Source of the DNA: Williamsia sp. 1135
GTDB lineage: Bacteria > Actinomycetota > Actinomycetes > Mycobacteriales > Mycobacteriaceae
Length of the DNA stretch: 64,000 bases
Assembly (NCBI RefSeq): GCF_002095395.1
Contig: NZ_MJEI01000105.1
Span: 186,001 to 250,000 of the forward strand
Direction: 5' to 3'
This document shows, one piece after another, positions 4,593 through 21,223 of this stretch (position 1 is the stretch's first letter; each line of letters starts with the position of its first letter). The notes under the pieces were generated by a model. It was not told where the DNA came from, did not search any database, and saw only the letters and a program-made list of their open reading frames with translations. Made by a program: the position numbers and the translations under genes.

Positions 4593-5485
4593 CGTGTGCC
4601 ACTCGCGGTGCCCGGTTCGTCGCCGGTGACGATCGGCGCCCGCACCGCGTTGCCCCATTCGGTCCAGGAGCCGTCGTAGTTGCGGACCTTGTCGAAACCG
4701 AGCAGATGCGTGAGCACGAACCAGGTGTGCGACGAGCGCTCCCCGATGCGGCAGTAGACGATGGTCGACTGGTCGGGGGCGAAGTCCGAGTACAGCTCGC
4801 GCAGGTCTGCGGCCGGTTTGAACCGCCCGTCCGGGGCCGCGGCCTTTGCCCACGGGATCGACACCGCGGTGGGGATGTGGCCGCCGCGCAGGGCACCTTC
4901 CTGTGGATACTCCGGCATGTGGGTGCGCTCACCGGTGTATTCCTGCGGGGATCGGACATCGATGAGTGGTTCGGTGCCGATGCCGGCCCTCACCTCGTCG
5001 GCGAAGGCTCTGATCTGCGAGTCATCGCGCTGCACGACCGGATAGTCGGATTCGGGGTAATCGGGGACATCGAAGGTGATGTCGCGGTCCTCGGAGAACC
5101 AGGCGTCACGGCCGCCGTCGAGCAGGCGGACGTCTTCATGGCCGAACAGGGTGAACACCCACAGGGCGTAGGCGGCCCACCAGTTGCTCTTGTCGCCATA
5201 GATGACCACGGTGTCATCGCGGCGGATTCCTTTGCTGCGCATCAGCTCTGCGAACTGTTCGCCGGAGATGTAGTCGCGGGTCACCGGGTCGTTGAGGTGC
5301 AGATGCCAATCGACCTTCTGCGCGGTCGGGATGTGCCCGATGTCGAACAGGAGCACATCCTCGTCGGATTCGACGATCTTGAGACCGTCGGTGCCGAGGT
5401 GGGCGCTGAGCCACTCGGTACTGACCAGGCGCTCGGGGTGAACGTACTCGGCAAAGCCGGGGTTGTTGTCGATCTCCACGGTCAC
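4589..5485 (-). CDS. sseA: Thiosulfate/3-mercaptopyruvate sulfurtransferase (SseA)
   Basis: A two-domain rhodanese of 298 residues. The N-terminal domain is the inactive structural repeat and the C-terminal one carries the catalytic cysteine (about Cys245) in CRIGERSS, the CRxGxRxS loop typical of the SseA/CysA group. Each domain begins with the family's substrate-loop pattern ('[13 protein letters not shown]' and '[14 protein letters not shown]'). It transfers sulfane sulfur from thiosulfate or mercaptopyruvate to an acceptor, probably the adjacent SufE protein. The start is GTG with GGAG a few bases upstream. It lies 76 bases downstream of PapA-type gene B on the same strand, so it may be transcribed with the acyltransferase genes. 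In M. tuberculosis its upstream neighbour is maf, which here lies about 13 kb away. Confidence 0.95.
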
Positions 5486-5561: not shown

Positions 5562-6905
5562 CTACCAGGGTTGCCGCAGGAACCGGGAGAGTTCATCGAG
5601 GAAGGATGTGATGACCGGCTCGGCGGCCTCGGTGCCCGGATACCGGGTGCGCAGGGCGAGCCCGCGCTCGGTCCGCGATATCCAGAATTGCGCGTCGTCG
5701 GCTGTGGTCACGTTGGACACGTGGTGCGCCCCGATGTCCTCGTGCGCGGCCGCGCCGGGGAGTCCGCGGTAGTCGACGAACGAGACCATGAAGATGTCAC
5801 TTCGCTGATGGTTGAGGCCTCCCATCGCGGCGAGTACGTGTGGGACGGGCACCTCGCCGAGGGATACCGCCGTGCGCAGTGCCGGACCGGCACGCTGAAC
5901 GGATTCGCTGAAGTCCTCGGTCGCGGCCACCTTGATCGGTGCGTTGGTCGTGAACCAGCCGACCGCACCGCGCCACTGTTCCGAGCGGCGTGTGTGCAGT
6001 GGGAACAGTAGTGACATCTGTGGGCCGCCCCCGAGAACCCGGACGCACCGTGCCATCGCGGCGAGCATGCCCGCGAACACGGATGCACCATTGCGCCGGC
6101 AGAACACCTCGAAGGCGGTGGTGGTGTCCGCGTCCAGCAGGTCGCGCAGGTCCACGGCCTGAGGTGCCGCCTGACCGGGAGGGAGTCCCAGATCGAGTGG
6201 GAAACCCGGAGGGGTGTTGTCGTGCTCGTCGAAGAACTTCAGCCAGGCGCGCATCCGCGGGTCCCGGGGGCCGACGATCGCGGCCTCTGCTTCAGCGGCG
6301 CAGTAATCGACGAAGCTGCCGGCCATCGGCATCGTGTCGGCGAAGAATCCGCCGGGTTCTTCGAGGCAACCGCGATAGAGCTGATAGAGGTCGTCGATGA
6401 TGATCGACATCGAGTACGCGTCCACGTGCGCGTGGTCGAAGCCGCAGAAGACGGTAGAGCGCTCGGCCCGATCGATCGCTGCCAACAGGTAGGCGGGAAA
6501 ACCGAACGGGTGGCACGCCGTGTTCAACGTGCTCCACAGCAGATCCCGCAATCCCTCAGGTGAGTCCGTTCGGGCCATCGGCTCCTGTTTCAGGATCAGC
6601 TCGGCGGGGTCGTAGAGTTCCCTTTCGATCTCGCCGTCGCGTCGCACGAATGCACTGTGCAACGTGCCGTGGCGTGCGATCAACAGGCGGTAGGCGCGCT
6701 CGAGTGCCTTGCCGTCGACCCGCCCCTCGATATCGAATGCTGCTGCGAGCCAGACGCTTTCGCCTTCGGATCCGCTCAGGTGGAAACCCTGGTTGAACGA
6801 GGGCGGTACCGGCGAAGCCACCGGTCGAACGGCTCCGGAATCGACCGTCCACTGCATCAGGTCGCCGGGATCGGGCAGGTAGTGGTCAATGGTGGTGACG
6901 TGCAA
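5562..6905 (-). CDS. PapA-type acyltransferase B
   Basis: A 447-residue condensation-fold acyltransferase. The N-terminus 'HVTTIDHYLPDPGDLMQW' resembles the start of mycobacterial PapA2. The catalytic region reads FDHAHVDAYS (His158, Asp162), so the usual Gly after the aspartate is Ala. 'IFMVSFVDYRGLPGA' is the C-terminal family strand. The start is TTG: an in-frame stop lies three codons upstream and no ATG or GTG precedes the conserved residues; a GAGG sequence lies upstream. It begins 23 bases after the end of gene C and is followed by sseA. It probably transfers a fatty acyl group to a sugar or lipid hydroxyl; the substrate is not visible from sequence. Confidence 0.86.
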   Translation of the reverse strand: MHVTTIDHYLPDPGDLMQWTVDSGAVRPVASPVPPSFNQGFHLSGSEGESVWLAAAFDIEGRVDGKALERAYRLLIARHGTLHSAFVRRDGEIERELYDPAELILKQEPMARTDSPEGLRDLLWSTLNTACHPFGFPAYLLAAIDRAERSTVFCGFDHAHVDAYSMSIIIDDLYQLYRGCLEEPGGFFADTMPMAGSFVDYCAAEAEAAIVGPRDPRMRAWLKFFDEHDNTPPGFPLDLGLPPGQAAPQAVDLRDLLDADTTTAFEVFCRRNGASVFAGMLAAMARCVRVLGGGPQMSLLFPLHTRRSEQWRGAVGWFTTNAPIKVAATEDFSESVQRAGPALRTAVSLGEVPVPHVLAAMGGLNHQRSDIFMVSFVDYRGLPGAAAHEDIGAHHVSNVTTADDAQFWISRTERGLALRTRYPGTEAAEPVITSFLDELSRFLRQPW

Positions 6906-6928
6906 GCGCGGTTACCTCGATCCGATGT

Positions 6929-8392
6929 TCATGGCAGGCGCATCTCTTCCGTCGCAAATACCGTGGGTCCCGGACTGGGTACAGCGTAGTCGCCGCTGCT
7001 GACGACTCGATCGAATACCGACCACAGGTGTTCGTGGTACCGCTTGACCTGGAGCTGCGCCAGAGTGGTGTCCGGGGTCTGGCTGCCGAGGTAGAGACGA
7101 TCGTCGTCGCGGTTGAACCACATCGAGGCATTTGCGGTCCGGCCTTCTCCGGTGAAGAGCACGCCGCGGTCATAGGCCTGGCCTCCGTATCCGGGGAACC
7201 GGCGAAAATCGATGTAAGACAGGAGGTTGGGACTTGCCGCGACGTCGGCGGGCGAGGCGCCCGAACCCAGCAGCGCGGCGATGACGCTTTGTGCGGGAAC
7301 GGCGGCGAGACGTTTCGCCCTGGTGTAGCCGGCAAACGCGGCCGGCACCAGATCGGTGAACGATCGTGCGCCTTCGACCTTGAAGGCGACCGGGGCGAAG
7401 TTGCAGAACCAGCCCTGGGACATCCCGAAGTCGGCGAGCAACCGCGTCGCGAGTACCGAGATACCGAAATAGTCGGCGCGGGCGGCGAGTTCGTACTCCG
7501 TGAGTGCAACCGCGGCGTAGATCCCCGACAAAAAACTGCCGCCGGCCTCTGCGCAGATGCGCTCGAACCGGGCGATGCCGTCGGCGTCGAGCAGGTTCAG
7601 TTCGACCGGGCGGACCGGGGCCGTCTCGCCTGGCGCCAGGCCCATGTCCAGGGGGAATCCCGGCATGGATCCGCCATGTGAATCGAAGATGTCGCGCCAC
7701 TCGACGATCTCGGCGGAGTCGGCGTCGAAACCGGCGGCGAGTTGATTTTCCAGCCGCGCGTACTCGACGAAACTGCCGGTGGGTGCGCTCGCGAAGTGAG
7801 CCGGTGCGCTTCCGGTGATCTCGGCGTCGTACAACTCGGCGATCTCCGCGAGCGCCAGAGCCTGGGAGGCTCCGTCGCTCAGCGCGTGGTCACACCCGTA
7901 GTAGAGGGTGAAGCTGCCGGGGCGGCTGATCGCCCCGAATGCGAAACCCGGCCAGCTCATTGCCACCGCTTCATTCCCGAAGCGGTTGTGGAGGTACTCC
8001 CGGAATTGTTCGGATTCGGTGAACTCTCCGGCCACCCCGACCTCGAAGTCGACGGCCTCGGGATCGAGGAGGTGTCGGGTGATCGCGACCCCGTCAGTGT
8101 CGAACCAGGTCCGCAGACCTTCATGGCGTAGTACGAAGCTGCGCAATGCCCGGGTCAGGGCACTGCGATCGAGATCACCGTCGATGTCGGTGCCCGAGCC
8201 GAGATAGGCCTTGTGGTCACCGCCGCCTTGCCGAGCGACATGGCATGCCCTGATGTGGTTCTCCTGCAGGAATGACAGGGGGCCCGCGTCCTGGGCTGCC
8301 GCTGCCGCGCGTTCCCGCGCCGTCGGCGTCGGATGCCACTCGAGCAGGGTGCCACCGGCCGGGGTCCACCAATCCATCGCGGTGATGATCAC
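6929..8392 (-). CDS. PapA-type acyltransferase C
   Basis: A 487-residue PapA-like acyltransferase. The active-site motif is CDHALSDGAS (His169, Asp173, Gly174), so the canonical HxxxDG is kept. 'LRHEGLRTWF' near 89-98 and 'LLSYIDFRRFPGY' in the C-terminal half match the other three paralogues. The start is GTG with a GAGAGG-like ribosome binding site. It sits 39 bases after gene D and 23 bases before gene B, consistent with one operon. An N-terminal Ala-rich stretch around residues 25-36 is specific to this copy. Donor and acceptor are unknown. By family it should use acyl-CoA or carrier-bound acyl groups, and since no carrier protein or PKS is encoded nearby, acyl-CoA is the likelier donor. 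Confidence 0.86.
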   Translation of the reverse strand: MIITAMDWWTPAGGTLLEWHPTPTARERAAAAAQDAGPLSFLQENHIRACHVARQGGGDHKAYLGSGTDIDGDLDRSALTRALRSFVLRHEGLRTWFDTDGVAITRHLLDPEAVDFEVGVAGEFTESEQFREYLHNRFGNEAVAMSWPGFAFGAISRPGSFTLYYGCDHALSDGASQALALAEIAELYDAEITGSAPAHFASAPTGSFVEYARLENQLAAGFDADSAEIVEWRDIFDSHGGSMPGFPLDMGLAPGETAPVRPVELNLLDADGIARFERICAEAGGSFLSGIYAAVALTEYELAARADYFGISVLATRLLADFGMSQGWFCNFAPVAFKVEGARSFTDLVPAAFAGYTRAKRLAAVPAQSVIAALLGSGASPADVAASPNLLSYIDFRRFPGYGGQAYDRGVLFTGEGRTANASMWFNRDDDRLYLGSQTPDTTLAQLQVKRYHEHLWSVFDRVVSSGDYAVPSPGPTVFATEEMRLP

Positions 8393-8431
8393 GTTGAGCG
8401 CCTCTCTGTACCGGGGAGTCGTCCCGCTGGT

Positions 8432-9910
8432 CTAGGCCGGGAACTTGTCTTGCGAGTAAGGGATCGTGAGCGAGGTCAGTGAACGGCCGGCGGTGGGATG
8501 ATCACCGGCGCGGGCGAACCCGAGCAGTAGTTCGCCGAGGGCATCGATGAAGCGTCGTACTCCTGCCTCGGCGACCTCGGTTGCAGGGAAGCGAGCTGAC
8601 ACCGTCATGCCGACCGGGGTCCGGGCGATCCACAGATACACCTCGTCGTCCGAGAATGTGCCGCTGCGCAGGGTGCGTCCGCGCCACCGCTCCCATTCCG
8701 CTGCGCCGGGCACGAATCTCACGTCGAGGTAGGAGACCACGAACTGTGGGACTGCGTGTCTTCCGAGCAATTGGGCGATGCGAGGGTAGGGAAAGCGGGC
8801 GAAACTCTTGGTGGCGGCCACCGCCTCTGCGCCCGCCCTCATGCAGTCACCGAAGGTCTCGGCGGCCGTGATGTCCACTTCGACCGGGATGATGCCGACG
8901 TACCAACCGACGGATTCGACGTACTGTGACTCGTGGCGGGTGTGCATCGGCATCACGAATCGCAGCGTGGATTCGCCCACGAGTTCGCGTTGCACCAGTG
9001 CGAGCGACGCGAGTACGGCCGACTGCATGTTGTGCCCGAGTTCGTGGCAGTTGGCGTTGACCTGGGCGACCTGCTCGGACGACAGCAGCCACGTGGACAT
9101 CCCGTTCTGCTGCCGGCCCGCATGCGGGTTGATGCCTTCGGGTTTGACCGGAAGTCCGAAACGGGGGAACTGCCCGCCGCCCGCGTCGAGAAATCGCTGC
9201 CACTTCTCGACCGCGTGATGCTCAGGGGTGAGTCCGCCGCCGATGACGCGATCGTTCGCGCTGAAGTCGACGTGACTGCCGATCTCGGACAGAGCCGGAT
9301 CGATTCCGTTGAGCTCGTACGCGTACAAGCGCTGGATCTCGCTGATGCCCAGCAGCATCGAATACGCGTCCATCACCGAGTGGTCGGCGCCGAAGACCAC
9401 GAGGAAGCCGTTGCCGGCAATCGGTGCGTCGGGGTCCGAGACGGTTGCCACCAGGCAGTGTGGCCACGTCAGCGGTGAGATCTGGGTGTCGAACAGGTCG
9501 ACAAGGTGTGCGCGTACGTGAGCCCCGTTCCTGAGGCGACCGACGGGATGGGGAGCCATGTCGAGCACCTCGCCCGAACTGGTGAGCCGGGTGAGGCAGG
9601 TACTGCCTTGGGCGTCAACAGTCTTGGTCACCGTGGTTCGGAAGGCCTCGTGTCGGAGCATCCAGGCCCGGAGCGTTCGCCTGACGGCATCGGCATCAAA
9701 CGGTAGGTGAATCTCGAAAGCTGCTCCAAGCCAAGCAGATTGACCGTTCGATGGTTCGCCCGACATCCCGCGCGTGTAGTGGTCTTCGTGGTCGTAGGTG
9801 AGAGGACGGGAGTCCACAGACCAGCACGCGCCGTCGGCTCCGGTGGTGGGTATCCACTCGGTGAGGCTGCCCGAGGGCAGCGGATAATATACAAGTTCAG
9901 TGAATTCCAT
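8432..9910 (-). CDS. PapA-type acyltransferase D (first of operon)
   Basis: A 492-residue PapA-like acyltransferase and the first gene of the leftward acyltransferase operon (D-C-B-sseA-sufE-A). The motif is GADHSVMDAYS (His177, Asp181), with Ala in place of the motif Gly as in paralogue B. 'MLRHEAFRTTV' near 84-94 and 'FVVSYLDVRFVPGAAEW' match the family. It starts with ATG, preceded by a weak GCGGGA ribosome binding site. The upstream 546-base intergenic region, shared with the divergent ABC exporter, is clearly richer in A/T than the genes. Predicted role: transfer of an acyl group to a glycolipid intermediate. No signal peptide or membrane segment is evident. Confidence 0.86.
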   Translation of the reverse strand: MEFTELVYYPLPSGSLTEWIPTTGADGACWSVDSRPLTYDHEDHYTRGMSGEPSNGQSAWLGAAFEIHLPFDADAVRRTLRAWMLRHEAFRTTVTKTVDAQGSTCLTRLTSSGEVLDMAPHPVGRLRNGAHVRAHLVDLFDTQISPLTWPHCLVATVSDPDAPIAGNGFLVVFGADHSVMDAYSMLLGISEIQRLYAYELNGIDPALSEIGSHVDFSANDRVIGGGLTPEHHAVEKWQRFLDAGGGQFPRFGLPVKPEGINPHAGRQQNGMSTWLLSSEQVAQVNANCHELGHNMQSAVLASLALVQRELVGESTLRFVMPMHTRHESQYVESVGWYVGIIPVEVDITAAETFGDCMRAGAEAVAATKSFARFPYPRIAQLLGRHAVPQFVVSYLDVRFVPGAAEWERWRGRTLRSGTFSDDEVYLWIARTPVGMTVSARFPATEVAEAGVRRFIDALGELLLGFARAGDHPTAGRSLTSLTIPYSQDKFPA

Positions 9911-10456
9911 AGTCCCGCATCCGGTTCCGGTGATGACGTGTAATTGCGATCGCTAATCGTCGGAGAGGTTCTGACTGCGCTTCCCAATCGTATGGCCGGA
10001 CTCTCGCGATTTCGTCACGAGGATAAAGTGTTGTTCATCACTTTTAGCGTTGCAAACAGTCGGACAACACAGTTCTTCGAAAGAGTGCGAGAAGGTTGTC
10101 GAAACGCTGAAAACAATCTTCTAACAGGCATTTTGCCGGACGCGGTGAGTGTGGTGGGCAAGCGTCTGTGCGGCATTGTCGCGCAGTTTTTGCGAGTTGG
10201 TGTCGGGCATGTGACATCGATGTGAAATAAGTTGGCTTACAGTCACTTTGACAGGACGTGAAATCCGGCCGGACCATGTGCCACTCTTGCGGGGATTCGT
10301 TGGCAGGGACTAACCTTCGGCTGTGGGGTAAACGCTTGGCGGAATACAGGCGTCGTTCGGTATTTCTTGTGCGTTATCTGTTGGCGCCGTGGCCGCGTAG
10401 CCAAATGTGATCCAACAGGGCGACCAGAATCGGTGTCCAATAGGAGGAGAAACGCG
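9911..10456. other. AT-rich divergent intergenic region
   Basis: 546 bases lie between the divergent starts of PapA-type gene D (leftward) and the DrrA-like gene (rightward). The middle part (about 10010-10260) is markedly richer in A/T than anything else in the window. It must hold the promoters of both operons. A short open frame at 9944-10225 has no family resemblance and is not called. No tRNA or recognisable RNA element was seen. Upstream of the ABC gene there is a plausible -35/-10 pair (listed separately) and an AGGAGG ribosome binding site. Confidence 0.6.
10287..10316 (+). promoter_or_regulatory. Candidate promoter of the drrA-like operon
   Basis: TTGCGG (10287-10292), an 18-base spacer, and TAACCT (10311-10316), a good actinobacterial -10 of the TANNNT type. 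It lies about 140 bases before the start codon, so the transcript would have an untranslated leader. Found by eye only. Confidence 0.4.
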
Positions 10457-11431
10457 ATGGGCAACCGATCACCGCTGGCGATCGAGGCGACCGGACTCGT
10501 GAAGACCTACGGTACTTTTCGCGCCGTTGACGGCATAGACCTCGCGGTACCTGCGGGCATCGTCTACGCCGTGCTCGGACCCAACGGGGCAGGCAAGACC
10601 ACCACCGTGCGTATGCTCGCCACGCTGCTTCGGCCCGATGCCGGACATGCTGCGGTGTTCGGTTACGACGTCGTCCGCGATGCCACGGCCGTGCGTTCCC
10701 TGATCGGGGTGACGGGTCAATATGCATCCGTGGACGAAGATCTGACAGCGGCCGAGAACCTGATGATCTTCGGCAAGCTCCTCGGCTTGTCGCGGACCGC
10801 GGCGAAATCCAAAGCGGCTGAACTACTCGAGGAGTTCGGCCTCGAAGCCGCGGCCGGCAGGTCTCTCCGGCACTTCTCCGGCGGTATGCGCCGTCGCCTC
10901 GACCTCGCGGCGAGCTTGATCTCGCGCCCGCCGTTGCTCTTTCTCGACGAACCGACCACCGGACTCGATCCGCGAACGCGCGCGCAGATGTGGACCACGA
11001 TCCGAGCGCTGGTCGCAGCAGGCTCGACTGTTTTGCTGACCACGCAGTATCTCGAGGAAGCCGATCAGCTGGCCGATCGCATCGCGGTGATCGACAACGG
11101 CCGGCTTGTCGCGGACGGAACCGCGGACGACCTGAAGGCGGCCGTCGGGTCCTCGACCCTCATCTTGGCCCTGGGTGATCCCGCGGCAGCCGGGGAGGCG
11201 GCGGGCATTGTCGCCGGCTACACGCGCACGGAGGTCACCGTGTCCGGCAACGGAGGGGTCGCCGCACCATTGGACGATCTCTCGCTCATGCCGGAGCTGT
11301 TGTTCGCCTTGCGAGCGGCGGGCATCGAGCTTCGGGAGATCAATGTGCAGAAGCCCAGCCTCGACGAGGTGTTCTTCACGATCACCGGGCAGCCCACCGA
11401 GGTACCCGAGATCCGGGAGGACGCCGCATGA
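10457..11431 (+). CDS. DrrA-type ABC exporter, ATP-binding subunit
   Basis: A 324-residue ATPase of the daunorubicin-resistance/DrrA type of ABC exporter. Walker A GPNGAGKTT is at 41-49, signature SGGMR at 141-145 and Walker B LFLDEP at about 161-166. The C-terminal 80 residues form the family extension that ends in 'PSLDEVFFTITG'. The ATG follows AGGAGG at nine bases; longer starts upstream lack family similarity. It overlaps the permease gene by ATGA. Mycobacterial DrrABC exports the large lipid phthiocerol dimycocerosate, so in this context export or flipping of the glycolipid made by the flanking acyl- and glycosyltransferases is the most natural role; that link is inference from position. 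Confidence 0.93.
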   Translation: MGNRSPLAIEATGLVKTYGTFRAVDGIDLAVPAGIVYAVLGPNGAGKTTTVRMLATLLRPDAGHAAVFGYDVVRDATAVRSLIGVTGQYASVDEDLTAAENLMIFGKLLGLSRTAAKSKAAELLEEFGLEAAAGRSLRHFSGGMRRRLDLAASLISRPPLLFLDEPTTGLDPRTRAQMWTTIRALVAAGSTVLLTTQYLEEADQLADRIAVIDNGRLVADGTADDLKAAVGSSTLILALGDPAAAGEAAGIVAGYTRTEVTVSGNGGVAAPLDDLSLMPELLFALRAAGIELREINVQKPSLDEVFFTITGQPTEVPEIREDAA

Positions 11432-12264
11432 CCGCCGGAACCGAGATCCCGTTCGATCCCGAAGTCGCTGCGCTGCTTGCCGACCGGCACATCCCGAAGC
11501 ACGTCTCGATGGGCAGATCGGTCTCGCAGGCACTGACCATGGCCGAGCGCGGGTTGCTCAAGATCAAACACAATCCGCAACAGCTGTTCGACGTGGTCAT
11601 CCTGCCGATCGTGTTCACGGTGTTGTTCTCGAGCATCTTCGGCGGAGCCATCGCCGGCAACGTCAACGCGTATCTTCCGCTCCTGATCCCGGGTGTGCTC
11701 GTCCAGGTCGCCGTCGCCGCGTCGGTGACCACCGGTGTGCAACTGCGCGAGGATCTCGACAAGGGCGTCTTCGATCGTTTCAAATCCCTTCCCATCGCCA
11801 GGATCTCACCCCTCGCCGGTTCGCTGCTGGCAGATGTGGTGCGCTATGTCGTGGCGACCGGGGTGACAGTTCTTGTCGGATTCGCGATGGGGTACCGGCC
11901 CGGAAGCATCGCCGGGCTCTTTGCCGGCTGTCTTCTCGTCATCGTCGTGGCATTCGCGTTGAGCTGGATATTCGCGCTGATGGGTGTCCTGATGAACAAG
12001 GCATCCACGGTGCAGGGGGTCTCGATGCTGATCCTGATGCCGCTGACCTTTGTGTCCAACGCGTTGGTGCCCGTCACCACGTTGCCCGGATGGATGCAGT
12101 CTTTCGCGTCGGTCAATCCCGTCTCGCATCTCGTGTCCGCGGTGAGAGAACTGGCCGTCGACGGACATTTCGGTCCGCAGATCGCGTGGTCGCTGATCGG
12201 AGCACTCGTGGTGCTCGCCATTTTTGCACCCCTGACCCTGCGGGTGTACATGCGCAAGACCTGA
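11428..12264 (+). CDS. DrrB-type ABC-2 permease
   Basis: A 278-residue ABC-2 family permease with about six hydrophobic segments, beginning after a roughly 45-residue cytoplasmic N-terminus ('NPQQLFDVVILPIVFTVLFS' is the first membrane segment). The segment 'REDLDKGVFDRFKSLPI' is the conserved cytoplasmic motif of DrrB-type permeases, and 'LPGWMQSFASVNPVSHLVSA' their usual C-terminal periplasmic motif. The start codon overlaps the ATPase stop as ATGA. With the preceding gene it makes a complete two-gene exporter. The following GT2 gene begins 56 bases downstream on the same strand and is probably co-transcribed. Confidence 0.93.
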   Translation: MTAGTEIPFDPEVAALLADRHIPKHVSMGRSVSQALTMAERGLLKIKHNPQQLFDVVILPIVFTVLFSSIFGGAIAGNVNAYLPLLIPGVLVQVAVAASVTTGVQLREDLDKGVFDRFKSLPIARISPLAGSLLADVVRYVVATGVTVLVGFAMGYRPGSIAGLFAGCLLVIVVAFALSWIFALMGVLMNKASTVQGVSMLILMPLTFVSNALVPVTTLPGWMQSFASVNPVSHLVSAVRELAVDGHFGPQIAWSLIGALVVLAIFAPLTLRVYMRKT

Positions 12265-12320
12265 CCGATCTGTCAGCCGGCGGATCGACCTGTGCGAACT
12301 TCTGACATCGAAGGAGCGTG

Positions 12321-13220
12321 ATGGATTCGAAGTGTTTGTCGGTGGTGGTCCCCACCTTCAACGAAGAGGAGGTGATCGGCGAATGTCTTGAACGCTTGAG
12401 CCGCCAGCTCGACTACATCCTCGAAATCGTGGTCGTCGACAACAACTCGACCGACAAGACAGCAGACATCGTCGCCACGTTCACCGAGCGGCATCCTGAG
12501 ATCAGGATGATCTCCGAGACCCGGCAGGGACTCGTCTTCGCCCGCAATGCCGGTCTCGACGCCAGCGGCGGCCCAGCAGTGGCGAGGATCGATTCCGACA
12601 CACTTGTGCCGCCACACTGGGCTCGGACGATCGTCGAGTTCCTGCAGAGCGACACAGAACACCGATGGGCGGCGCTGTGCGGCCGGGGCGAGGCGTATGG
12701 ACTGCCCTATGGAGAGGCCTTGAAGGGTGTGAAGGAACGGATCAGTCCGTTGCGTGCGCGACGAGTCAACACAACACGCGCGGGCATCCCCACGCCGATC
12801 GAAGTCAAGGACGTTCCGGTCCTGTACGGCTCCAACATGGTGCTACGCCGCGAGACGTGGTTACAGATTCGCGAGCGGGTCAGCCTGCGACGTGACCTGT
12901 TCGAAGACGTCGACACCGGACTCTGCGTACAGGAATCGGGCGGACGAAATGCGTTTCTGCCGGACATCACGGTGGGTGTCTCACCCCGGCGGATGGAGAC
13001 GAGCGTGCCGGCGTTCCTGACCTACATGATCTGCCTGCCGCGAACCCTGTTGGTACACAGACGGTTCGGATGGGCAGCACTGGCTGCCCTGGTGTACCTG
13101 CCGATGGTCACCGCACTCCATGCCGTTCGACTGGTCGTGATCCGGGCCTACGACAAAGAAACCGGGGAGTTCGCGGCCAAGAACATGCTGCGGCCGACCC
13201 ACGATCGGATCATGCCGTGA
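12321..13220 (+). CDS. GT2 family glycosyltransferase
   Basis: A 299-residue GT-A fold glycosyltransferase of family 2. 'SVVVPTFNEEEVIGECL' is the nucleotide-sugar binding start, 'VVVDNNSTDKT' follows at about 37-47, and the metal-binding DxD is Asp91-Ser-Asp93. The C-terminal third has one or two hydrophobic stretches ('FGWAALAALVYLPMVTALHA'), suggesting membrane attachment facing the cytoplasm. The ATG has AAGGAG four bases upstream; a GTG directly before it is too close to that site. It follows the ABC exporter genes in the same direction. Sugar donor and acceptor are unknown; a role in building the glycan head of a lipid is inferred from the neighbours. Confidence 0.88.
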   Translation: MDSKCLSVVVPTFNEEEVIGECLERLSRQLDYILEIVVVDNNSTDKTADIVATFTERHPEIRMISETRQGLVFARNAGLDASGGPAVARIDSDTLVPPHWARTIVEFLQSDTEHRWAALCGRGEAYGLPYGEALKGVKERISPLRARRVNTTRAGIPTPIEVKDVPVLYGSNMVLRRETWLQIRERVSLRRDLFEDVDTGLCVQESGGRNAFLPDITVGVSPRRMETSVPAFLTYMICLPRTLLVHRRFGWAALAALVYLPMVTALHAVRLVVIRAYDKETGEFAAKNMLRPTHDRIMP

Positions 13221-13267
13221 CACCACATCCGCTGCCCTGGGACAGCTGAGCCGCGACCGCGCGGACA

Positions 13268-14536
13268 TCACGATCGCACGGCCTGCTCGACAAGCTCTGC
13301 TGCCGCGGTGACCGCTGCGGCAGGCGTGACCAACTGCTCGGACAGCCCCCGCGCCGCGCGGGTGTGAACAGGCGTCAGCAACTCCGCGAGCGCGCTGCGG
13401 AATCCGCTCTCGTCAATCTTGGCGAGTGGAGCACTCAACCCGGCGCCGCTGCGCCGAATCTGCCTGCCCCACAAAGGCTGGTCAGCGCCCAGCCAGTAGA
13501 CGAGTGTCGGCAGTCCTGCCCGCAGCGACGCGGCGATGGAACCCGCGCCACCGTGATGGACGGCCGCGACGCACTGGGGCAGGATCGCGTCGTGGTCGAC
13601 GGCGGGAACCGCGTGAATCCGGTCACCGGGCGCATCGAACGTCAAGCCACCCCATCCGGTGGCGAGTAGAACCCGCAGTCCCGCGGCCTCGGTGGCGGTC
13701 GCGATCACCCTCGCCAGGCGGTCGGGGTCTGCCACGGCCATGCTCCCGAATCCGACGTAGAGCGGTGGTGGTCCGTCATCGAGCCACCTCTGCAGCTCGT
13801 GGTCGGAGTGCCCGTCGCCCATCCGTTTTCGGGTCTGAGTCGTGAGGTTGAAGAATCCCACCAAAGGTCTGCGCGCACCCCACTCCGACGTCAGGCCGGA
13901 GAACAACGCGGCGTCGTAGGCCTGGATCTCCGGCACTCCTTGCCTTCCGATACGGGTGGCCGCGGGTGCGTCGGCCGCGGGCAGTCCCAACTCGGATCCG
14001 AGCGTGTTCTCGGCCGATCGGGTTGCCCGCCAGAGGATTTGTTCGAGTACGGTCCAGCTCGCGCGTGCCACCGGTGGCGGAGGATTGATACCGAACTGCG
14101 TGAGCAGTGAGACCTCACCGTTGCGGCGAATCGGACACAGATGGATGGGGATGTAGGGGATCCCGCGTACCAGCGCGACGTTGAGTGCACGTTCCTGGCC
14201 TGCGCTTCCGCCGATGATGGCGTCCGCGCCGGCGGTGAGGTCGAGCAGTTCTTGCTGCATCGTCCGCCCGCCCCTGAGCGTGATCTCTGACACCGCACGC
14301 AGTTTGGTGACCGGATTGTTGGACTTGAGGTCCCGTGAGACGACCTCGGAGCGAAGAAGTTCTCGAGTGTCGAGTCCGTAGCTGTGTACCGCCAGCCCGG
14401 AGCCCCCGGCGAAATCGGTGAGGTTCGGTGGGACCGCGAGCACGACTTCATGACCGCGCACGGCCAATTCACTGCCGAGTGCGATGGCGGGCTGCACGTC
14501 GCCGCGACTTCCGTTGAACGCCAGTACAAATTTCAT
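13268..14536 (-). CDS. GT1 (UGT/Gtf-like) glycosyltransferase, leftward copy
   Basis: A 422-residue GT-B fold glycosyltransferase of the MGT/UGT type, like those that glycosylate mycobacterial glycopeptidolipids and phenolic glycolipids. The N-terminus 'MKFVLAFNGSRGDVQPAIAL' is the family's acceptor-side start, and the nucleotide-sugar binding motif HHGGAGS lies at about 327-333, followed by 'YWLGADQPLWGRQ'. It is transcribed leftward, divergently from a second homologous GT1 gene, and its 3' end faces the GT2 gene. The ATG is preceded by GAGGGG. Its partner shares the same motifs but the two proteins differ clearly, so they probably add different sugars or act at different positions. Confidence 0.92.
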   Translation of the reverse strand: MKFVLAFNGSRGDVQPAIALGSELAVRGHEVVLAVPPNLTDFAGGSGLAVHSYGLDTRELLRSEVVSRDLKSNNPVTKLRAVSEITLRGGRTMQQELLDLTAGADAIIGGSAGQERALNVALVRGIPYIPIHLCPIRRNGEVSLLTQFGINPPPPVARASWTVLEQILWRATRSAENTLGSELGLPAADAPAATRIGRQGVPEIQAYDAALFSGLTSEWGARRPLVGFFNLTTQTRKRMGDGHSDHELQRWLDDGPPPLYVGFGSMAVADPDRLARVIATATEAAGLRVLLATGWGGLTFDAPGDRIHAVPAVDHDAILPQCVAAVHHGGAGSIAASLRAGLPTLVYWLGADQPLWGRQIRRSGAGLSAPLAKIDESGFRSALAELLTPVHTRAARGLSEQLVTPAAAVTAAAELVEQAVRS

Positions 14537-14598
14537 CGCCCCTCGTTTCGGCCAAAGCGGGCTCGATCTTGCGGTAGCGGTTTCGCTGACCCTGCACG

Positions 14599-14620
14599 AC
14601 CCTAACGTCTCACCTAGGAT
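14599..14620. promoter_or_regulatory. Back-to-back -10 elements of the two GT1 genes
   Basis: On the minus strand TAGGGT (14604 to 14599) points toward the leftward GT1 gene; on the plus strand TAGGAT (14615-14620) points toward the rightward one. Both fit TANNNT. They lie only ten bases apart, so one regulator could control both glycosyltransferases. Read by eye; -35 elements are not obvious. Confidence 0.38.
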
Positions 14621-14627
14621 GATGTGA

Positions 14628-14705
14628 ATGACGGCGGTCGGGGCCGAGACAGTGCGGGGAGGCGATGATGCGTTTTGTCCTCGCGTTCAACGGAACGCGT
14701 GGTGA
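14628..14705 (+). CDS. Possible leaderless upstream ORF (25 aa)
   Basis: An ATG lies seven bases after the -10-like TAGGAT, the spacing of a leaderless transcript. It opens a 25-codon frame that ends at TGA 14703-14705, overlapping the first dozen codons of the GT1 gene in another frame. The peptide has no recognised features. It could be chance, or translation through it could affect access to the GT1 ribosome binding site (GGGGAGG, 14656-14662). Confidence 0.2.
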   Translation: MTAVGAETVRGGDDAFCPRVQRNAW

Positions 14706-15957
14706 TATCCAGCCCGCGGTTGTGCTCGGTGCAGAACTGCTGCGACGTGGACACGAGGTGGTGTTCGGGGCGCCGCCCAACCTGGTCGAGTTCGCGGCCG
14801 GGGCCGGACTCGATGCACGCCCATTCGGCTACGACACCAGGGCGCACATCAACTCGGCCGTCATCCGGGAGGGCGTGCGTACCGGTGGGCCTCTCAAACG
14901 CGTCCGCGCGCTTGCCGAAATCCGCGATCACGGTTGGAGCCAGATGGTCGACGAGATGTTTGGGCTCGCAGTGGGTGCCGACGCGATCGTGACCGGATTC
15001 ACCACGGCTCAAATAGTTTTCGCATTCGCACAACGAGACGACGTTCCGTTCTTCGTTCTGCATCATGCACCCGTGGCGGAGAATCCTTTCGTCTCGCCGT
15101 TCCCCGGGGCACCCCTGACGCTTCCTGCTCGCGTGAACGCAGTCAGTTGGGCTGCCGTCACCGCGGCGTTCTGGATGCTGACCAGGGGACGGGAGAACCG
15201 GCTCCGGCACCTGCTCGGGCTCGGCCCGGCCAAGCAACCCCTGTCACCGCGAATGCAGGCCTACGGAGCTGTCGAGGTCCAGGCATACGACCCTGTCTTC
15301 TGCCCCGAACTCACCCGGGTGTGGGGTGCCCGTCGCCCACTCGTCGGCTTCATCGATCTCCCGGCGGGCCTGCGACGCCGGATCGGCTCCGACCCTGTGG
15401 ACCCAGAGACCGAAGCCTGGATCGAGAGCGGGGATCCTCCCATCTATTTCGGGTTCGGCAGTATGCCCGTACCCGATCCGGAAGCTCTGTTGAGCGCGAT
15501 CGACGAGGCCTGCCGAGCGTTGGGGCAGCGCGCCCTGGTGTGCGCGGGATGGAACGACTTCGGCCAGACCTCGACCGAACGCGTGCGCGTGGTCGGTGCG
15601 GTCGACCACGGACGCGTGTTCGCGCGATGCCGGGCGGTGGTCCATCACGGCGGGGCGGGCACCACGTCCGCCGCTGTCCGGGCGGGCAAGCCGGCACTGG
15701 TGTGCTGGCTCGGTTCGGACCAGCCCTTCTGGGGACGGCAACTCGAGCGAATGGGCGCGGGAGCATCGATACCGCTCAAAACCCTGAATGCCGACGTTCT
15801 GACGAAGAATCTCGAGTTGATTCTCGGTATGGCGTACGCCGAGCGCGCAACGGAGGTGGCGTCCTGCCTCATCCCCGCCGAGCAGGCCGCCGCAGGCGCG
15901 GTCGACCTGATCGAGAACGCCGCCCGGCAGAGGCGCTCGATTCGATTGTCGGCCTGA
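14668..15957 (+). CDS. GT1 (UGT/Gtf-like) glycosyltransferase, rightward copy
   Basis: A 429-residue GT-B glycosyltransferase homologous to the divergent neighbour. It begins 'MRFVLAFNGTRGDIQPAVVL' and carries HHGGAGTT at about 326-333 followed by 'CWLGSDQPFWGRQ'. Two ATG codons are adjacent; the second is chosen because it lies five bases after GGGGAGG, the first only two. Its stop is followed within three bases by the GTG of the next acyltransferase gene, so glycosylation and acylation are probably co-expressed. By family it transfers a sugar from a nucleotide donor to a lipid-linked hydroxyl or sugar; the exact donor cannot be read. Confidence 0.92.
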   Translation: MRFVLAFNGTRGDIQPAVVLGAELLRRGHEVVFGAPPNLVEFAAGAGLDARPFGYDTRAHINSAVIREGVRTGGPLKRVRALAEIRDHGWSQMVDEMFGLAVGADAIVTGFTTAQIVFAFAQRDDVPFFVLHHAPVAENPFVSPFPGAPLTLPARVNAVSWAAVTAAFWMLTRGRENRLRHLLGLGPAKQPLSPRMQAYGAVEVQAYDPVFCPELTRVWGARRPLVGFIDLPAGLRRRIGSDPVDPETEAWIESGDPPIYFGFGSMPVPDPEALLSAIDEACRALGQRALVCAGWNDFGQTSTERVRVVGAVDHGRVFARCRAVVHHGGAGTTSAAVRAGKPALVCWLGSDQPFWGRQLERMGAGASIPLKTLNADVLTKNLELILGMAYAERATEVASCLIPAEQAAAGAVDLIENAARQRRSIRLSA

Positions 15958-15959
15958 TC

Positions 15960-17276
15960 GTGACGCGATTGGAGCCGGAAGACTTCACCTATTGGTTCGT
16001 ACACCGTGCCTTCGGGTGGTCGGTGGTGTTGCAGGTCTTGTGGACGTTCGATCGTCCGCCCTCGCGCGATGCGCTCATGGCCGTCAACGCGCACCTGGCG
16101 GCCAGCCCCTTGAATCGACAACTGATTACGTCGACGTTTCCCTTCTCGCGCCCGCGCTGGGTCCACGCCGAGATCGAACCGGAACTCCTCCTGGACGAGA
16201 CAGCGATCGAGAGCCGCGCGGTCGAGGTATGGGCGGCGCAGGAGATGTATTCCGCGCCTTTGGAACCCGAGAGTGGACCGCCGTGGCGGCTGCGGGGCAC
16301 GGCCACCGTCGATGGCGGCTTCGTGCTGTCCCTGACCACGCTGCATCTGATCGCAGACGGTAAGGCGACGGTGTCGGCCGCGGCAGACGCGCTCGGAGGT
16401 AAGGGGGTGGACGCCCTGTCCCTGCGTCCTCGGATTCATGCCGGCGCGGCGGATGCAGGTGATTCGATCCGTCAGATCGTCGCCGCGGCGTACGGCGTCG
16501 TGCGCGCGGCGATCACTACGCTGCGCCGCGACTCGACGCCACCACCCCCGACGCGGCCACCCCGTCCGCCGATGAATGTGAGAGCGCCCGCTGCCGCCGG
16601 ACCGTGGGCGATCGTCAGTGTGGACGTCGACGCGTGGCGCAAGGTCGCCGAGGAGCACGGCGGCACCGCGAACAGCCTTTTTGTTGCGGTGATCTCAGGG
16701 TTGTTGCGAAGCAGCGGCTACGCACCACTCGGAGAACCGATCAAGGTGGGGGTCCCCGTCAGCAACAGAACGGCCGACGACGAGGGAGGCAACGCCACCG
16801 CGGGGGTCTCGGTCCACCTGACCGACGAGCCGGCCGCCGGCGGCGACCTGGGCCCGATCCGGCGAAAGTGCAAGGCCGCCTTCACCGTGCTCGCAGAAGG
16901 CCGCAGGCCTGCCATGATCCATCTGCTACCGCTGATGTGGTTGCTCCCGACATCTCTGATCGTCAAGGCGGTCAGCTCGGGCAGCGGGATGCCCGACGCG
17001 GTCGCGTCCAATCTCGGCGCCTTCGCCTCGGAACTCTCAGAGCTGGGCGGGGTACCCGCCTCTGGTGTCGCCTTCCGCGGAATCGCGCAGGGGGTCAATC
17101 CGTCGCAGCCCTACCGGTTCGGCGAGGGTGTCCAGTCCTGGCTCCTCGAGGTGGGCGATCAGCTCACGTTCTCGGTGGCGGCATTCGACGAATCCCGGTT
17201 CGGCGACCGGCCGGAGCTTCATCGCCTGCTCACTGCAGAACTCGACGCCTGGGGACTACCGCACCGCATCTGGTGA
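15960..17276 (+). CDS. HxxxDG acyltransferase (WS/DGAT-like), first of pair
   Basis: A 438-residue protein of the CoA-dependent acyltransferase/condensation superfamily, closer in layout to WS/DGAT-like proteins than to the four PapA copies. The motif is TLHLIADGKA (His129, Asp133, Gly134). Conserved C-terminal features shared with the next gene are 'EEHGGTANSLFVAVISGLL', 'VPVSNRTADDEGGNAT' and the ending AWGLPHRIW. A Pro-rich linker lies near residues 185-200. GTG at 15960 is the first start after the preceding stop (two-base gap); frames extending further upstream lie inside the glycosyltransferase and have no family similarity. It probably esterifies a glycolipid or alcohol with acyl-CoA; the substrate is unknown. 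Confidence 0.82.
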   Translation: MTRLEPEDFTYWFVHRAFGWSVVLQVLWTFDRPPSRDALMAVNAHLAASPLNRQLITSTFPFSRPRWVHAEIEPELLLDETAIESRAVEVWAAQEMYSAPLEPESGPPWRLRGTATVDGGFVLSLTTLHLIADGKATVSAAADALGGKGVDALSLRPRIHAGAADAGDSIRQIVAAAYGVVRAAITTLRRDSTPPPPTRPPRPPMNVRAPAAAGPWAIVSVDVDAWRKVAEEHGGTANSLFVAVISGLLRSSGYAPLGEPIKVGVPVSNRTADDEGGNATAGVSVHLTDEPAAGGDLGPIRRKCKAAFTVLAEGRRPAMIHLLPLMWLLPTSLIVKAVSSGSGMPDAVASNLGAFASELSELGGVPASGVAFRGIAQGVNPSQPYRFGEGVQSWLLEVGDQLTFSVAAFDESRFGDRPELHRLLTAELDAWGLPHRIW

Positions 17277-17301
17277 TGCGCTGACCGGAGGACGAACACA
17301 T

Positions 17302-18657
17302 ATGTCTGAGCAAGGAAAGCAAGCAGATCGGGTCACCGGTGCGGATGAATCCTATCTGTTGGCCGAGGATCTTTTCGGCCTCGGTGCGCCCATCCAGTTC
17401 CTGTGGGTCTTCGACCGACACCCCGGTGAGGCGGCGCTGGTCCGACTGCGGGATGAGCTGGCAGCCGGGTCGCTGAACCGGAGGGTACGCCGGACCCGGG
17501 TACCACTCGCCCGCGATCGGTGGATCCGTCACGACGAGGTCCCCGATCTCAGACTTGCGCATTCACCGATCGCCGACGACGAGATCGGGGCGTGGATGGA
17601 CGAACGTGTTCGGGGTTCGGCCCTGCGACCGGCGGACGGTCAGGGGTGGCAGCTGGACGGTGCACCGACCGATTCGGGTGGGTACGCACTGTCACTCCTG
17701 GTCTCGCACATGGTCTCCGACGGACAGGGTGTCTATGGGGCACTCGCCGCCGCTCACGCAGGAGCGTCGACCAACACGTTGCCCACATTCGATCAGACGC
17801 GCGGTTGGCCCGGGATACGGGACGATCTCACCGATGCCAGGGGGCAGGTCGCAGCGGCTGTCCGGTCGGGTGCACTCCTTGCCGCGGCGCTGTGGAAGCA
17901 GCGCAGTGAGGTGGACAGCGTCCCGAAGGACCCGAACGCCCCGAAGGCGGCGGTGTCACCGGATCGTGGTGGTCCCGAGACAACGCTCGCCACGGCGGAT
18001 GTGGACAAGGAGCAGTGGATTGCCCGGGCGGCCGAACACGGTGGCACGTCGAACAGTTTGTTCACGGCGCTACTCGGCGGCTTGGTGCAACGCTCGGGGT
18101 ATCCCGTTCCGGCGCCGGCGATGCGGTTGTGTATCGCCGTCAGCAGGCGCAGCGACGGCGACGAACGTGCGAATGCATCTGGTGGCGTGTGGATTCGAGT
18201 GCCAGGGGAGATCACACCCGACCGTGGGCTCGGCGAGATCAGGGCGCTGAGCAAGCAGGCCTTCATCGACTACGCGAACAACGGTGCGGCCGCGGTGGCC
18301 GACAACCTGCAACCGGTTGTGCGTCTGCTACCGAAACGATTGATCGGGAAGATGATGCAGTCGATACCGGGCCCGGACACCACGGTGTCGAATCTGGGAG
18401 TCGTGCCGCAGACCGCGCTCGAGCTGGGCGGCGAGACGGCGACGTCGTTCGGGATCAGAGCGATCATGCAGGGCCGCCCTCCAGAGCATCGCAGGACGCT
18501 GGGACCTGCGGTGGCGGCCTGGGCAGTCGAGTACGGGGACAAGGTGACGATCACGTTCTTCGGGATCCACCCGGACCACTTCGGAGATGCCGATCTGATG
18601 CGCAAGCAGATCGGGGAGGAGTTGACGGCGTGGGGTCTCGATCACCGGATGTGGTGA
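17302..18657 (+). CDS. HxxxDG acyltransferase (WS/DGAT-like), second of pair
   Basis: A 451-residue homologue of the preceding gene, with the motif VSHMVSDGQG (His136, Asp140, Gly141), 'AEHGGTSNSLFTALLGGLV', 'VSNLGVVP' and the ending AWGLDHRMW. The ATG follows GGAGG at about ten bases. It is the last gene of the rightward string (GT1, acyltransferase, acyltransferase), and its 3' end faces maf. The pair looks like a tandem duplication that has diverged. With the four PapA copies this makes six HxxxDG acyltransferases within 16 kb, more than the few ester positions of a simple glycolipid would seem to need. Confidence 0.82.
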   Translation: MSEQGKQADRVTGADESYLLAEDLFGLGAPIQFLWVFDRHPGEAALVRLRDELAAGSLNRRVRRTRVPLARDRWIRHDEVPDLRLAHSPIADDEIGAWMDERVRGSALRPADGQGWQLDGAPTDSGGYALSLLVSHMVSDGQGVYGALAAAHAGASTNTLPTFDQTRGWPGIRDDLTDARGQVAAAVRSGALLAAALWKQRSEVDSVPKDPNAPKAAVSPDRGGPETTLATADVDKEQWIARAAEHGGTSNSLFTALLGGLVQRSGYPVPAPAMRLCIAVSRRSDGDERANASGGVWIRVPGEITPDRGLGEIRALSKQAFIDYANNGAAAVADNLQPVVRLLPKRLIGKMMQSIPGPDTTVSNLGVVPQTALELGGETATSFGIRAIMQGRPPEHRRTLGPAVAAWAVEYGDKVTITFFGIHPDHFGDADLMRKQIGEELTAWGLDHRMW

Positions 18658-18696: not shown

Positions 18697-19323
18697 TCAC
18701 ACCCAGAGGTCGGTGACGCTCACTCCGACATTGTCGAGCAAACTGCGTACCAGCGGGAGGCTGATGCCGATCACCGATGACGGATCGCCGTCGATCCCGT
18801 CGACGAACCAGCCGCCGCGGCCGTCGAGCGTGAATGCCCCGGCCACGGCCAGCGGCTCTTCGGTGGCCACATAAGCTTCGATCTGTGCGTCCGTCGGACT
18901 ACTGAAACGTATTGTGGTCGCGACGGTTCGGCTCTCGGAGGCCACGATCTCACCCGCGATCAGTCGCACCACGCAATGGCCCGTCAACAACTCGGCCTGC
19001 GTGCCGCGCATCGCGTGCCACTGGGCTCGGGCGGCGGCAGCGGTATGCGGTTTGCCCGTGAGTGCACCGCCGTGATGGAGCATTGAATCGCACCCTACGA
19101 GTACCACGTCTTCTCGGAGGCGGGGATCGAGCGAGGCCACCACGCTCTCCGCCTTCGCACGGGCGAGAGTGGCAACGACGTCCGCGGGTGGTGCGCTCGA
19201 ACCGATCTCGGCGATGAGAGCTTCCTCGTCGACGTCGGACACGTGAACCACCGGATCGAGTCCGGCTGCCTGCAGGATCCGAAGCCGCGCCGGTGAGGCC
19301 GATGCCAGTATGAAACGGGTCAT
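18697..19323 (-). CDS. maf: Maf-like nucleoside triphosphate pyrophosphatase
   Basis: 208 residues with the Maf family signature: 'MTRFILASASPARLRILQAAG' contains the conserved SASPxR motif at 8-13, and 'VLVGCDSMLHHGG' has the conserved D in the usual xxxxDxxV-type position, followed by GKPHTAAAARAQW. Maf proteins hydrolyse non-canonical or modified nucleotides and are linked to septum formation control. The start at the ATG before TRFILAS is required by the family N-terminus; the longer frame is unrelated. The gene lies 29 bases downstream of the accE5 stop on the same strand, as in M. tuberculosis, where sseA follows; here the accessory cluster follows instead. Confidence 0.94.
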   Translation of the reverse strand: MTRFILASASPARLRILQAAGLDPVVHVSDVDEEALIAEIGSSAPPADVVATLARAKAESVVASLDPRLREDVVLVGCDSMLHHGGALTGKPHTAAAARAQWHAMRGTQAELLTGHCVVRLIAGEIVASESRTVATTIRFSSPTDAQIEAYVATEEPLAVAGAFTLDGRGGWFVDGIDGDPSSVIGISLPLVRSLLDNVGVSVTDLWV

Positions 19324-19352: not shown

Positions 19353-19594
19353 TCAGTAGCCGAACGCGAGGTTCGGGAACACGCTCGGAGCCAGGCCGGT
19401 TGCCGCCCGCAGGCGATCGGACGGAGTGCCCCACAGGTTCCGCGGGCCGCTGTCGACCGGTCCACCCGAAACGCCGGCGGACGCGAAAACGCCTACGAGC
19501 GCTGCGACCTCGGCGTCAGACGGGTTGCCTCTCACGACCGTGAGAAATGGCTTCGCCGGTGCGGTATCCGTGGCCTCTGCCACCGTGTCGTCGC

Positions 19595-19598
<4 letters not shown>
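19353..19598 (-). CDS. accE5: Acyl-CoA carboxylase epsilon subunit
   Basis: An 81-residue epsilon subunit of an actinobacterial acyl-CoA carboxylase. The C-terminal part has the pattern seen in AccE proteins: '[20 protein letters not shown]' then '[10 protein letters not shown]'. In mycobacteria AccE5 stimulates and stabilises the AccA3-AccD5 complex. The ATG overlaps the accD5 stop as ATGA, so the two subunits are translationally coupled. The larger open frame around it is a shadow of accD5. The N-terminal 18 residues are Ala/Thr/Asp-rich and probably disordered. Confidence 0.92.

Positions 19599-21223
<1,625 letters not shown>

Follow-up and report, generated by a model that had tools for sequence, protein, structure and literature searches.

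A conserved acyltransferase, glycosyltransferase and exporter gene set at the maf–sseA interval of Williamsia and related genera, a candidate locus for trehalose-based oligosaccharide polyesters

We analysed a 64,000-nucleotide stretch of the 5.98-Mb genome of Williamsia sp. 1135 (contig NZ_MJEI01000105.1, positions 186,001 to 250,000; hereafter the window), in which a group of acyltransferase, glycosyltransferase (GT) and exporter genes lies inside the block that runs from accA3 to birA. From left to right, accA3, papA_1, sufE, sseA, papA_2, papA_3 and papA_4 are all on the minus strand and are followed by drrA, drrB and the GT2 gene on the plus strand, GT1a on the minus strand, GT1b, AT1 and AT2 on the plus strand, maf, accE5 and accD5 on the minus strand, and birA on the plus strand (Table 1). 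An earlier note on this DNA had proposed a glycolipid-type cluster inserted into the block, and the parts that it listed (PapA-type enzymes, a DrrAB exporter, one GT2, two GT1, two HxxxDG acyltransferases and the flanking genes) were all found at the place and on the strand given. The three PapA-type genes that it counted correspond to a real trio at 5562–9910 (minus strand), but the total is four, papA_1 (2725–4179) having been overlooked; since papA_1 separates accA3 from sufE, these two are also non-contiguous in the window. None of the genes identified from sseA to maf encoded a polyketide synthase (PKS), FadD, acyl carrier protein, sulfotransferase or MmpL, as the note had stated, and neither a nonribosomal peptide synthetase (NRPS), DrrC nor any polyprenol or scaffold gene was identified there. 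The intergenic stretch from which the two gene groups diverge contains no sigma-70-type promoter match and a single terminator-like stem, against an average of 0.4 in shuffles. The G+C content is 0.60–0.64 at 10–13 kb and 0.62–0.69 in the remainder of the first 26 kb, sufficiently close that base composition provides no sign of recent arrival.

Table 1. Features of the accA3–birA block in the window, with the evidence for each assignment.
Feature	Position	Strand	Assignment and evidence
accA3	757..2556 (start approximate)	-	Block flank; biotin carboxylase/carrier; Pfam Biotin_carb_N/C, CPSase_L_D2, Biotin_lipoyl
papA_1	2725..4179	-	PapA-type acyltransferase, HSLVDG; Condensation 2.2e-17; PapA2 6aef 7.1e-20
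sufE	4176..4592	-	PF02657 2.1e-29; overlaps papA_1 and sseA by a few bases
sseA	4589..5485	-	Slot flank; rhodanese-type sulfurtransferase; PF00581 6.8e-33; W. soli L007 orthologue 99%
papA_2	5562..6905	-	PapA-type acyltransferase, HAHVDA; Condensation 4.9e-16; PapA2 6aef 4.8e-29
papA_3	6929..8392	-	PapA-type acyltransferase, HALSDG; Condensation 4.9e-14; PapA2 6aef 1.8e-39
papA_4	8432..9910	-	PapA-type acyltransferase, HSVMDA; Condensation 6.6e-18; PapA2 6aef 8.9e-19
Intergenic region	9911..10456		Splits two divergent gene groups; terminator-like stem 10166-10186
drrA	10457..11431	+	ABC transporter ATPase; TIGR01188 353.7 bits
drrB	11428..12264	+	ABC-2 permease; PF01061 4.2e-27
GT2	12318..13220	+	GT2 glycosyltransferase; PF00535 5.1e-28
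GT1a	13268..14536	-	GtfB-like GT1 glycosyltransferase; PF06722, PF03033; GtfB 1iir 3.9e-24
GT1b	14665..15957	+	GT1 glycosyltransferase; PF06722, PF03033
AT1	15936..17276 (start 15936 or later)	+	HLIADG acyltransferase
AT2	17299..18657	+	HMVSDG acyltransferase
maf	18697..19323 (start approximate)	-	Slot flank; PF02545 5.9e-47
accE5	19353..19598 (81 codons)	-	Epsilon subunit; PF13822 3.5e-15
accD5	19595..21226 (start approximate)	-	Carboxyltransferase; PF01039 1.4e-205
birA	21287..22162	+	Biotin protein ligase; PF03099 4e-15

All four PapA-type products score above the cut-off for the Condensation family (PF00668), retain the catalytic His and Asp, and have as their best match of solved structure PapA2 (6aef), a trehalose-2-sulfate acyltransferase that forms acyltrehalose. 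This shared best match suggests a putative role for papA_1–4 in acylation of trehalose or acyltrehalose. The HxxxDG motif noted earlier is present in AT1 and AT2, while among the PapA-type enzymes papA_2 and papA_4 have Ala in place of its Gly (HxxxDA). We aligned 214 PapA/AT stretches over at least 400 residues and kept 213, the papA_4 of Nocardia harenae (L023, 14404–15834) being excluded because of a stop inside the matched stretch. A loose H-x3-[DE]-[GAS] motif occurs at stretch residues 120–186 in all 213, as judged by pattern check except for AT1 and AT2, which were compared by alignment. Most members of each group share a signature, with exceptions: HSLVDG or HSIIDG in the papA between sufE and accA3, HxHVDA in papA_2, HALSDG or HAFSDG in papA_3, HSVMDA in papA_4, HLVADG in AT1 and HMxxDG in AT2. 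In a tree of 188 of the 213 stretches (25 from duplicate regions were omitted; all trees in this work are FastTree only), papA_2 (35 sequences), papA_3 (38) and papA_4 (38) formed separate groups with support of 100 each, as expected if each enzyme has its own job. The papA between sufE and accA3 lay outside the papA_4 group in all eight cases checked and is also present in loci devoid of the cluster (L064–L067), so that papA_1 may have a separate, older role. Elsewhere in the same genome, contig C23 carries two extra PapA-type stretches, at 7284–8669 and at 2588–3823, the latter with two internal stops and apparently broken.

AT1 and AT2 gave no Pfam family at E ≤ 0.01. AT1 resembles wax-ester-synthase-type acyltransferases, with a match to TIGR02946 (acyl_WS_DGAT; 7.3e-10, 38.3 bits) that is far under the 309.95 cut-off of the model, and weak profile matches linked AT1 to WSD (7nxg, 9.2e-5) and a PapA5-type structure (8s6l, 1e-4), and AT2 to the same two (8s6l, 0.0013; 7nxg, 0.0085). 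Across 24 aligned AT2 and AT1 sequences, H137, D141 and G142 are invariant.

Of the glycosyltransferases, GT1a and GT1b match enzymes of the GtfB and macrolide types, GtfB being the best PDB match of GT1a, and GT2 resembles polysaccharide enzymes. DrrA passes the 312.45-bit cut-off of the TIGR01188 drrA model; DrrB passes ABC2_membrane and falls under the cut-offs of both TIGR01247 (66.4 of 223.05 bits) and TIGR00025 (92.2 of 146.9 bits). DrrB was a poor marker in a search of 150 genomes of the order, and AT2 and papA_4 were used in its place: PapA or GT matches were present in only one (L035) of the nine DrrB match regions fetched (L033–L041). Among the others, L034 and L036–L041 hold DrrAB-like pairs with no PapA or GT matches, and L033 is a second DrrAB pair of Williamsia sp. 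1135 itself (contig C54, 64412–65170), with 66–67% identity to the cluster pair and no adjoining PapA or GT match. The window also contains another ABC ATPase gene (35601–36455) and weak DrrA/DrrB-like matches at about 51.4–53.0 kb and from 62.8 kb.

The gene set is conserved as a unit. Among the genomes retrieved, the nearest relative is Williamsia soli (L007), with 88–99% protein identity over the block. Scanning named genomes with GT1a retrieved 26 loci, and GT1a lies within the same set in 18 of them (L007–L024), a recurrence beyond chance that spans Williamsia, Gordonia, Nocardia, Rhodococcoides, Antrihabitans and Millisia. All ten core genes were matched somewhere in the locus in 15 of the 18, and the other three lack a single one (GT1b in L011 and L013, papA_2 in L014). 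GT1b is located between GT1a and AT1 in 12/18; the gene taken as GT1b in L010, L012, L017 and L018 sits beyond AT2 and joins a different GT1 group. The remaining eight loci (L025–L032) contain GT1 relatives with fewer of the cluster parts or none. They include a second cluster type, a papA trio with an AT and a GT1a-like gene in four Gordonia (L025–L028), which was also seen, with DrrAB, in a genome of group g5 (L035). In 251 genomes of the family, AT2 (E ≤ 1e-70) was detected in 34 and papA_4 (E ≤ 1e-85) in 100. In 22 of the 34, AT2 and sseA share a contig and are less than 25 kb apart (seven of g1, six of g4, eight of g71 and G284 of g5), and the genes remain together even off the acc block, as in L058 and L080. 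The set is thus common to several genera, and the interval carries related sets in more; that the combination, which the earlier note did not recognise, is peculiar to one genome is not supported. Recurrence in 18 named loci rules out a one-off insertion, and a plasmid-borne element was also discarded, AT2 yielding just two weak matches in 72,556 plasmid records.

We then considered the interval between maf and sseA (hereafter the slot) in the 110 genomes in which both genes were among the matches listed (150 sseA and 113 maf rows, maf rows of genera with no listed sseA being excluded), a sample in which distant genera are under-represented. The gap was at most 700 bp in 37 genomes, 700–2,000 bp in 14, 2–7 kb in 16, 7–13 kb in 24 and 13–30 kb in 18, with one pair on different contigs. 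The block is thus contiguous at this point in other genomes, the order that the earlier note had given for M. tuberculosis from accA3 to birA (Rv3285–Rv3279c). In the same sample, the slot exceeds 2 kb on one contig in 58 genomes, and contents were read, some partly, in 15 (window, L042, L051–L053, L056, L059–L061, L063, L069–L074, L076–L077). Among the nine Williamsia (g1) genomes, it measures 13.2–21.9 kb in seven, window included, and ~1.5–1.7 kb in two, one of which (G252, L075) contains just a papA_2 at 71% identity. In a first sample of 20 family genomes with gaps read by hand, the g2 gap was below 800 bp in 10 of 13 and 3.8–7.1 kb in three. Six g4 genomes carry the set on the accD5 side of maf (L054 and L055 were read, the other four assigned by position).

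Several slot variants could be distinguished. The simplest are (a) the bare block (L078) and (b) a papA only between sufE and accA3 (L064–L067). Variant (c) has an MFS transporter, papA_3, papA_2 and the sufE–accA3 papA, with no GT match (L070, L074), and variant (d), in three g4 genomes (L049–L053), has the order AT-GT1-AT-papA_4-papA_3-papA_2 followed by sseA-sufE-papA-accA3; the segment in which papA_4-papA_3-papA_2 adjoins sseA-sufE-papA-accA3 is common to the window and L049–L053. Variant (e), in group g81, comprises one locus with one GT1, three PapA5-type genes (PF16911) and an AT2-like frame (L073), and another, devoid of GT matches, in which PapA-type genes accompany an MFS transporter (L063). 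Larger sets are (f) GT2, GT1a, GT1b, AT1, AT2 and three papA but no DrrAB, lying beyond maf towards accD5 (L054, L055), (g) the complete set of the window, and (h) the set minus GT1b, to which a second papA trio, a PF00756 esterase, a further GT1, an AT and DrrAB are appended (L076–L077). In a g5 genome (L069) the slot holds a papA trio, an AT and an esterase. PF00756 esterases adjoin papA trios at L069 10217–11260 and L077 466–1521. In L071, a single 5,934-codon frame fills most of the slot (2179–19983), and its N-terminal 3,268 codons, which were scanned, contain condensation, adenylation and carrier domains.

A link to known lipid chemistry is provided by Rhodococcus sp. I2R, a strain with a 5.3-Mb genome and a 16S sequence near those of R. 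yunnanensis and R. fascians. Over 30 new esters of succinoyl di- and trisaccharides have been described from it, their core being presumed to be trehalose, to which the trisaccharides add a hexose (PMC8396431). The papA genes of I2R are reported on contig 9 at 137,187, 138,665, 140,099 and 143,010 (PMC8396431), so that 5,823 bp separate the first and last starts, a distance known here from these published coordinates alone. The corresponding spacing is ~5,731 bp in the window and 5,815–5,920 bp in nine g4 genomes, namely those with two papA_4-type matches on one contig (G338, split over two contigs, was omitted); in the six other g4 genomes, whose set lies beyond maf towards accD5, it is ~6.7–6.8 kb. 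Of the nine loci with I2R-like spacing, three were read and all are variant (d), with one GT1. This GT1 (L049/L051/L053) is sister to the GT1b group of 16 with support of 91. The largest acyl count among the I2R rows inspected is six (five acyls plus succinate; PMC8396431), equal to the number of acyltransferases in variant (d) loci, which we count in favour of the interpretation below. Related chemistry has been recorded for R. fascians NBRC 12155 (a trisaccharide succinic tetraester), Tsukamurella tyrosinosolvens (tri/tetrasaccharide lipids) and Nocardia corynebacteroides SM1 (a pentasaccharide succinic octaester; all PMC4365757, Table 3), and Gordonia amarae is catalogued for trehalose lipid (PMC9009618, Table 1), its locus (L014) containing nine of the ten core genes with three GTs, which likewise speaks for that interpretation.

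We propose, with a probability of about 0.6, that the locus directs biosynthesis and export of a trehalose-based oligosaccharide polyester, that is, a biosurfactant of the succinoyl-oligosaccharide type. Trehalose would be supplied by general metabolism and lengthened by GT1b, GT1a and GT2 with up to three added sugars; PapA_1–4, AT1 and AT2 would use acyl-CoA for as many as six different acylations, each perhaps serving its own position or a hydroxyacyl chain, and DrrAB would export the finished lipid. Several lines of evidence lead us to this proposal: the conservation of the set as a unit (15/18 full, 3/18 minus one); the best match of all four PapA-type enzymes to PapA2, from which we infer the trehalose core; the motif shared by the 213 PapA/AT stretches and the separate papA_2, papA_3 and papA_4 groups; the agreement in papA spacing between I2R and nine g4 genomes, the three read being one-GT variant (d); and the grouping of the variant (d) GT1 with GT1b. 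The assignment of GTs to sugars, of one position to each acyltransferase and of lipid export to DrrAB are predictions of the same kind. The glycolipid that the earlier note envisaged is thus borne out in part, as a set for glycosylation, repeated acylation and export that is plausibly trehalose-based, while the sulfolipid-like product that it also entertained finds no support, there being no sulfotransferase, PKS, FadD or MmpL identified between sseA and maf. For the same reason we rejected a pathway of the sulfolipid or DAT/PAT (acyltrehalose) type, and one of the glycopeptidolipid type given that no NRPS was found in that interval.

A number of observations weigh against the proposal. Although related genes occupy the slot in part of the family, as the comparison called for by the earlier note revealed, the open-access papers found contain no experimentally proven product for any such locus. 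The I2R comparison uses published papA coordinates, not I2R sequence. Between sseA and maf we identified neither a trehalose-making gene nor a known succinyltransferase, a genome-wide search for SucT homologues not having been made. The one-GT loci are without DrrAB and GT2, and their ATs fall outside the AT1 and AT2 groups in 6/6 cases; AT1 and AT2 are themselves tied to PapA5 and WSD solely by sub-cut-off matches, and AT2 and PapA_3 gave no match when their profiles were compared (probability 0.4 of 100). The cluster lies away from the acc block in 12 of the 34 AT2-bearing genomes, and the slot itself can house other genes: an unrelated AMP-binding enzyme and a UDP-sugar dehydrogenase in three g2 inserts (seven frames scanned), a zinc-peptidase-like protein in two g5 genomes and an NRPS in a g74 genome (L071). 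Finally, three GTs in the G. amarae locus contrast with the plain trehalose lipid under which the species is listed (PMC9009618).

Use of the same enzyme types on a different core, such as glucose, glycosylated glycerol or a polyol, would also yield a polyacylated glycolipid, and the models and structures matched by GT1a and GT1b are indeed active on many different acceptors, no trehalose gene was identified in the cluster, and PapA homology leaves the acceptor unfixed. We nevertheless regard such a core as unlikely, for all four PapA-type enzymes best match the acyltrehalose-forming PapA2 and the related one-GT locus shares its papA spacing with a producer of a presumed trehalose core. Less probable still is decoration of an envelope scaffold or pigment, in the form of an acylated glycosyl carotenoid, a lipooligosaccharide or acylation of an envelope glycan. 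GT2 does resemble polysaccharide enzymes, and a Rhodococcus has yielded an acylated carotenoid glucoside (by a title cited in PMC7502451), but six acyltransferases and an exporter exceed what a glycosyl carotenoid needs, and the genes identified from sseA to maf include no polyprenol, PKS or scaffold gene. Least credible is a mixed island in which papA_2–4 would form a simple trehalose ester, with GT1a, GT1b, GT2, AT1, AT2 and DrrAB devoted to other products, an arrangement to which the solitary papA_2 of the G252 slot (L075), the papA_3-papA_2 pair that stands in L070 and L074 beside an MFS transporter without any GT, and the sufE–accA3 papA of the cluster-free loci (L064–L067) might point, but against which the genes co-occur across genera, even off the acc block (L058, L080).

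The trehalose-based oligosaccharide polyester proposal can be carried further, in a tentative form that we consider doubtful: the slot would be a recurrent address at which acyl-oligosaccharide lipid pathways grow and shrink, with the number of GT genes setting the length of the sugar chain and the window leading to a pentasaccharide polyester exported via DrrAB. Loci with no GT (variant c) would then correspond to trehalose, those with one (d) to a trisaccharide and those with three (f and the window) to a pentasaccharide, so that the three GTs of the window would predict up to five sugars. The pairing relies on species links presumed from genome size, variant (c) with R. erythropolis, (f), in 4.0-Mb g4 genomes, with R. 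corynebacterioides, (d) with R. fascians and g81 with Tsukamurella. These pairings were chosen after the fact, and only that of one GT with a trisaccharide has a published coordinate behind it. Three facts speak against counting in this manner: G. amarae has three GTs yet is listed for trehalose lipid (PMC9009618); if g81 is Tsukamurella, one GT in L073 and none found in L063 must be set against the tri-/tetrasaccharides reported for T. tyrosinosolvens; and the N. corynebacteroides lipid is an octaester, against six acyltransferases per locus (both lipids PMC4365757).

The individual parts of the set have counterparts in characterised systems. PapA-type enzymes acylate a trehalose core in M. 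tuberculosis, PapA1 and PapA2 for sulfolipid and PapA3 for acyltrehalose; the window differs from those PapA loci in having glycosyltransferases and DrrAB, with no PKS, FadD, MmpL or sulfotransferase identified. The Gtf enzymes of glycopeptidolipids belong to the GT1-type family and PDIM (a mycobacterial lipid) is exported by DrrABC, so that the window shares with these systems a GT1-type Gtf family and a DrrAB-type exporter, although no NRPS, PKS or DrrC was identified and DrrB scores under cut-off. Closer is the I2R papA quartet, which, like the window, has four PapA-type genes in the spacing papA_4-papA_3-papA_2-(~1.5 kb)-papA and involves repeated acylation; unlike the present analysis, the available parts of the I2R report name papA genes and scattered candidates, and no locus (PMC8396431), and the three I2R-related loci that were read differ from the window in that they have a single GT1, with GT2 and DrrAB missing. 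TlsA of Rhodococcus sp. SD-74, which acts in succinoyl trehalose lipid synthesis, resembles the cluster in being a putative acyl-CoA transferase with PapA-type homologues and a trehalose acceptor, and is ~30% similar to the I2R PapAs (PMC8396431). A further source places SD-74 in R. erythropolis and describes the genetics as less known (PMC7502451), and the genetic basis of succinoyl trehalolipids has been called 'still poorly understood' (PMC8396431). The trehalose-based oligosaccharide lipids of Actinobacteria are of the product class predicted here and are known as chemistry, with no genes named in the available part of that source (PMC4365757).

Thus, the product class and the families of the parts are already known, while the locus and the slot appear undescribed in the literature searched: no description of the locus was found in open-access full text, the scope of our search, subscription papers being outside it. 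The trehalose and oligosaccharide biosurfactants of rhodococci and their relatives have long been studied as chemistry, and the conserved locus provides a concrete genetic candidate for them. Moreover, its separate acyltransferase groups and variable number of GT genes make it possible to predict, in a testable way, how many sugars go with how many genes.

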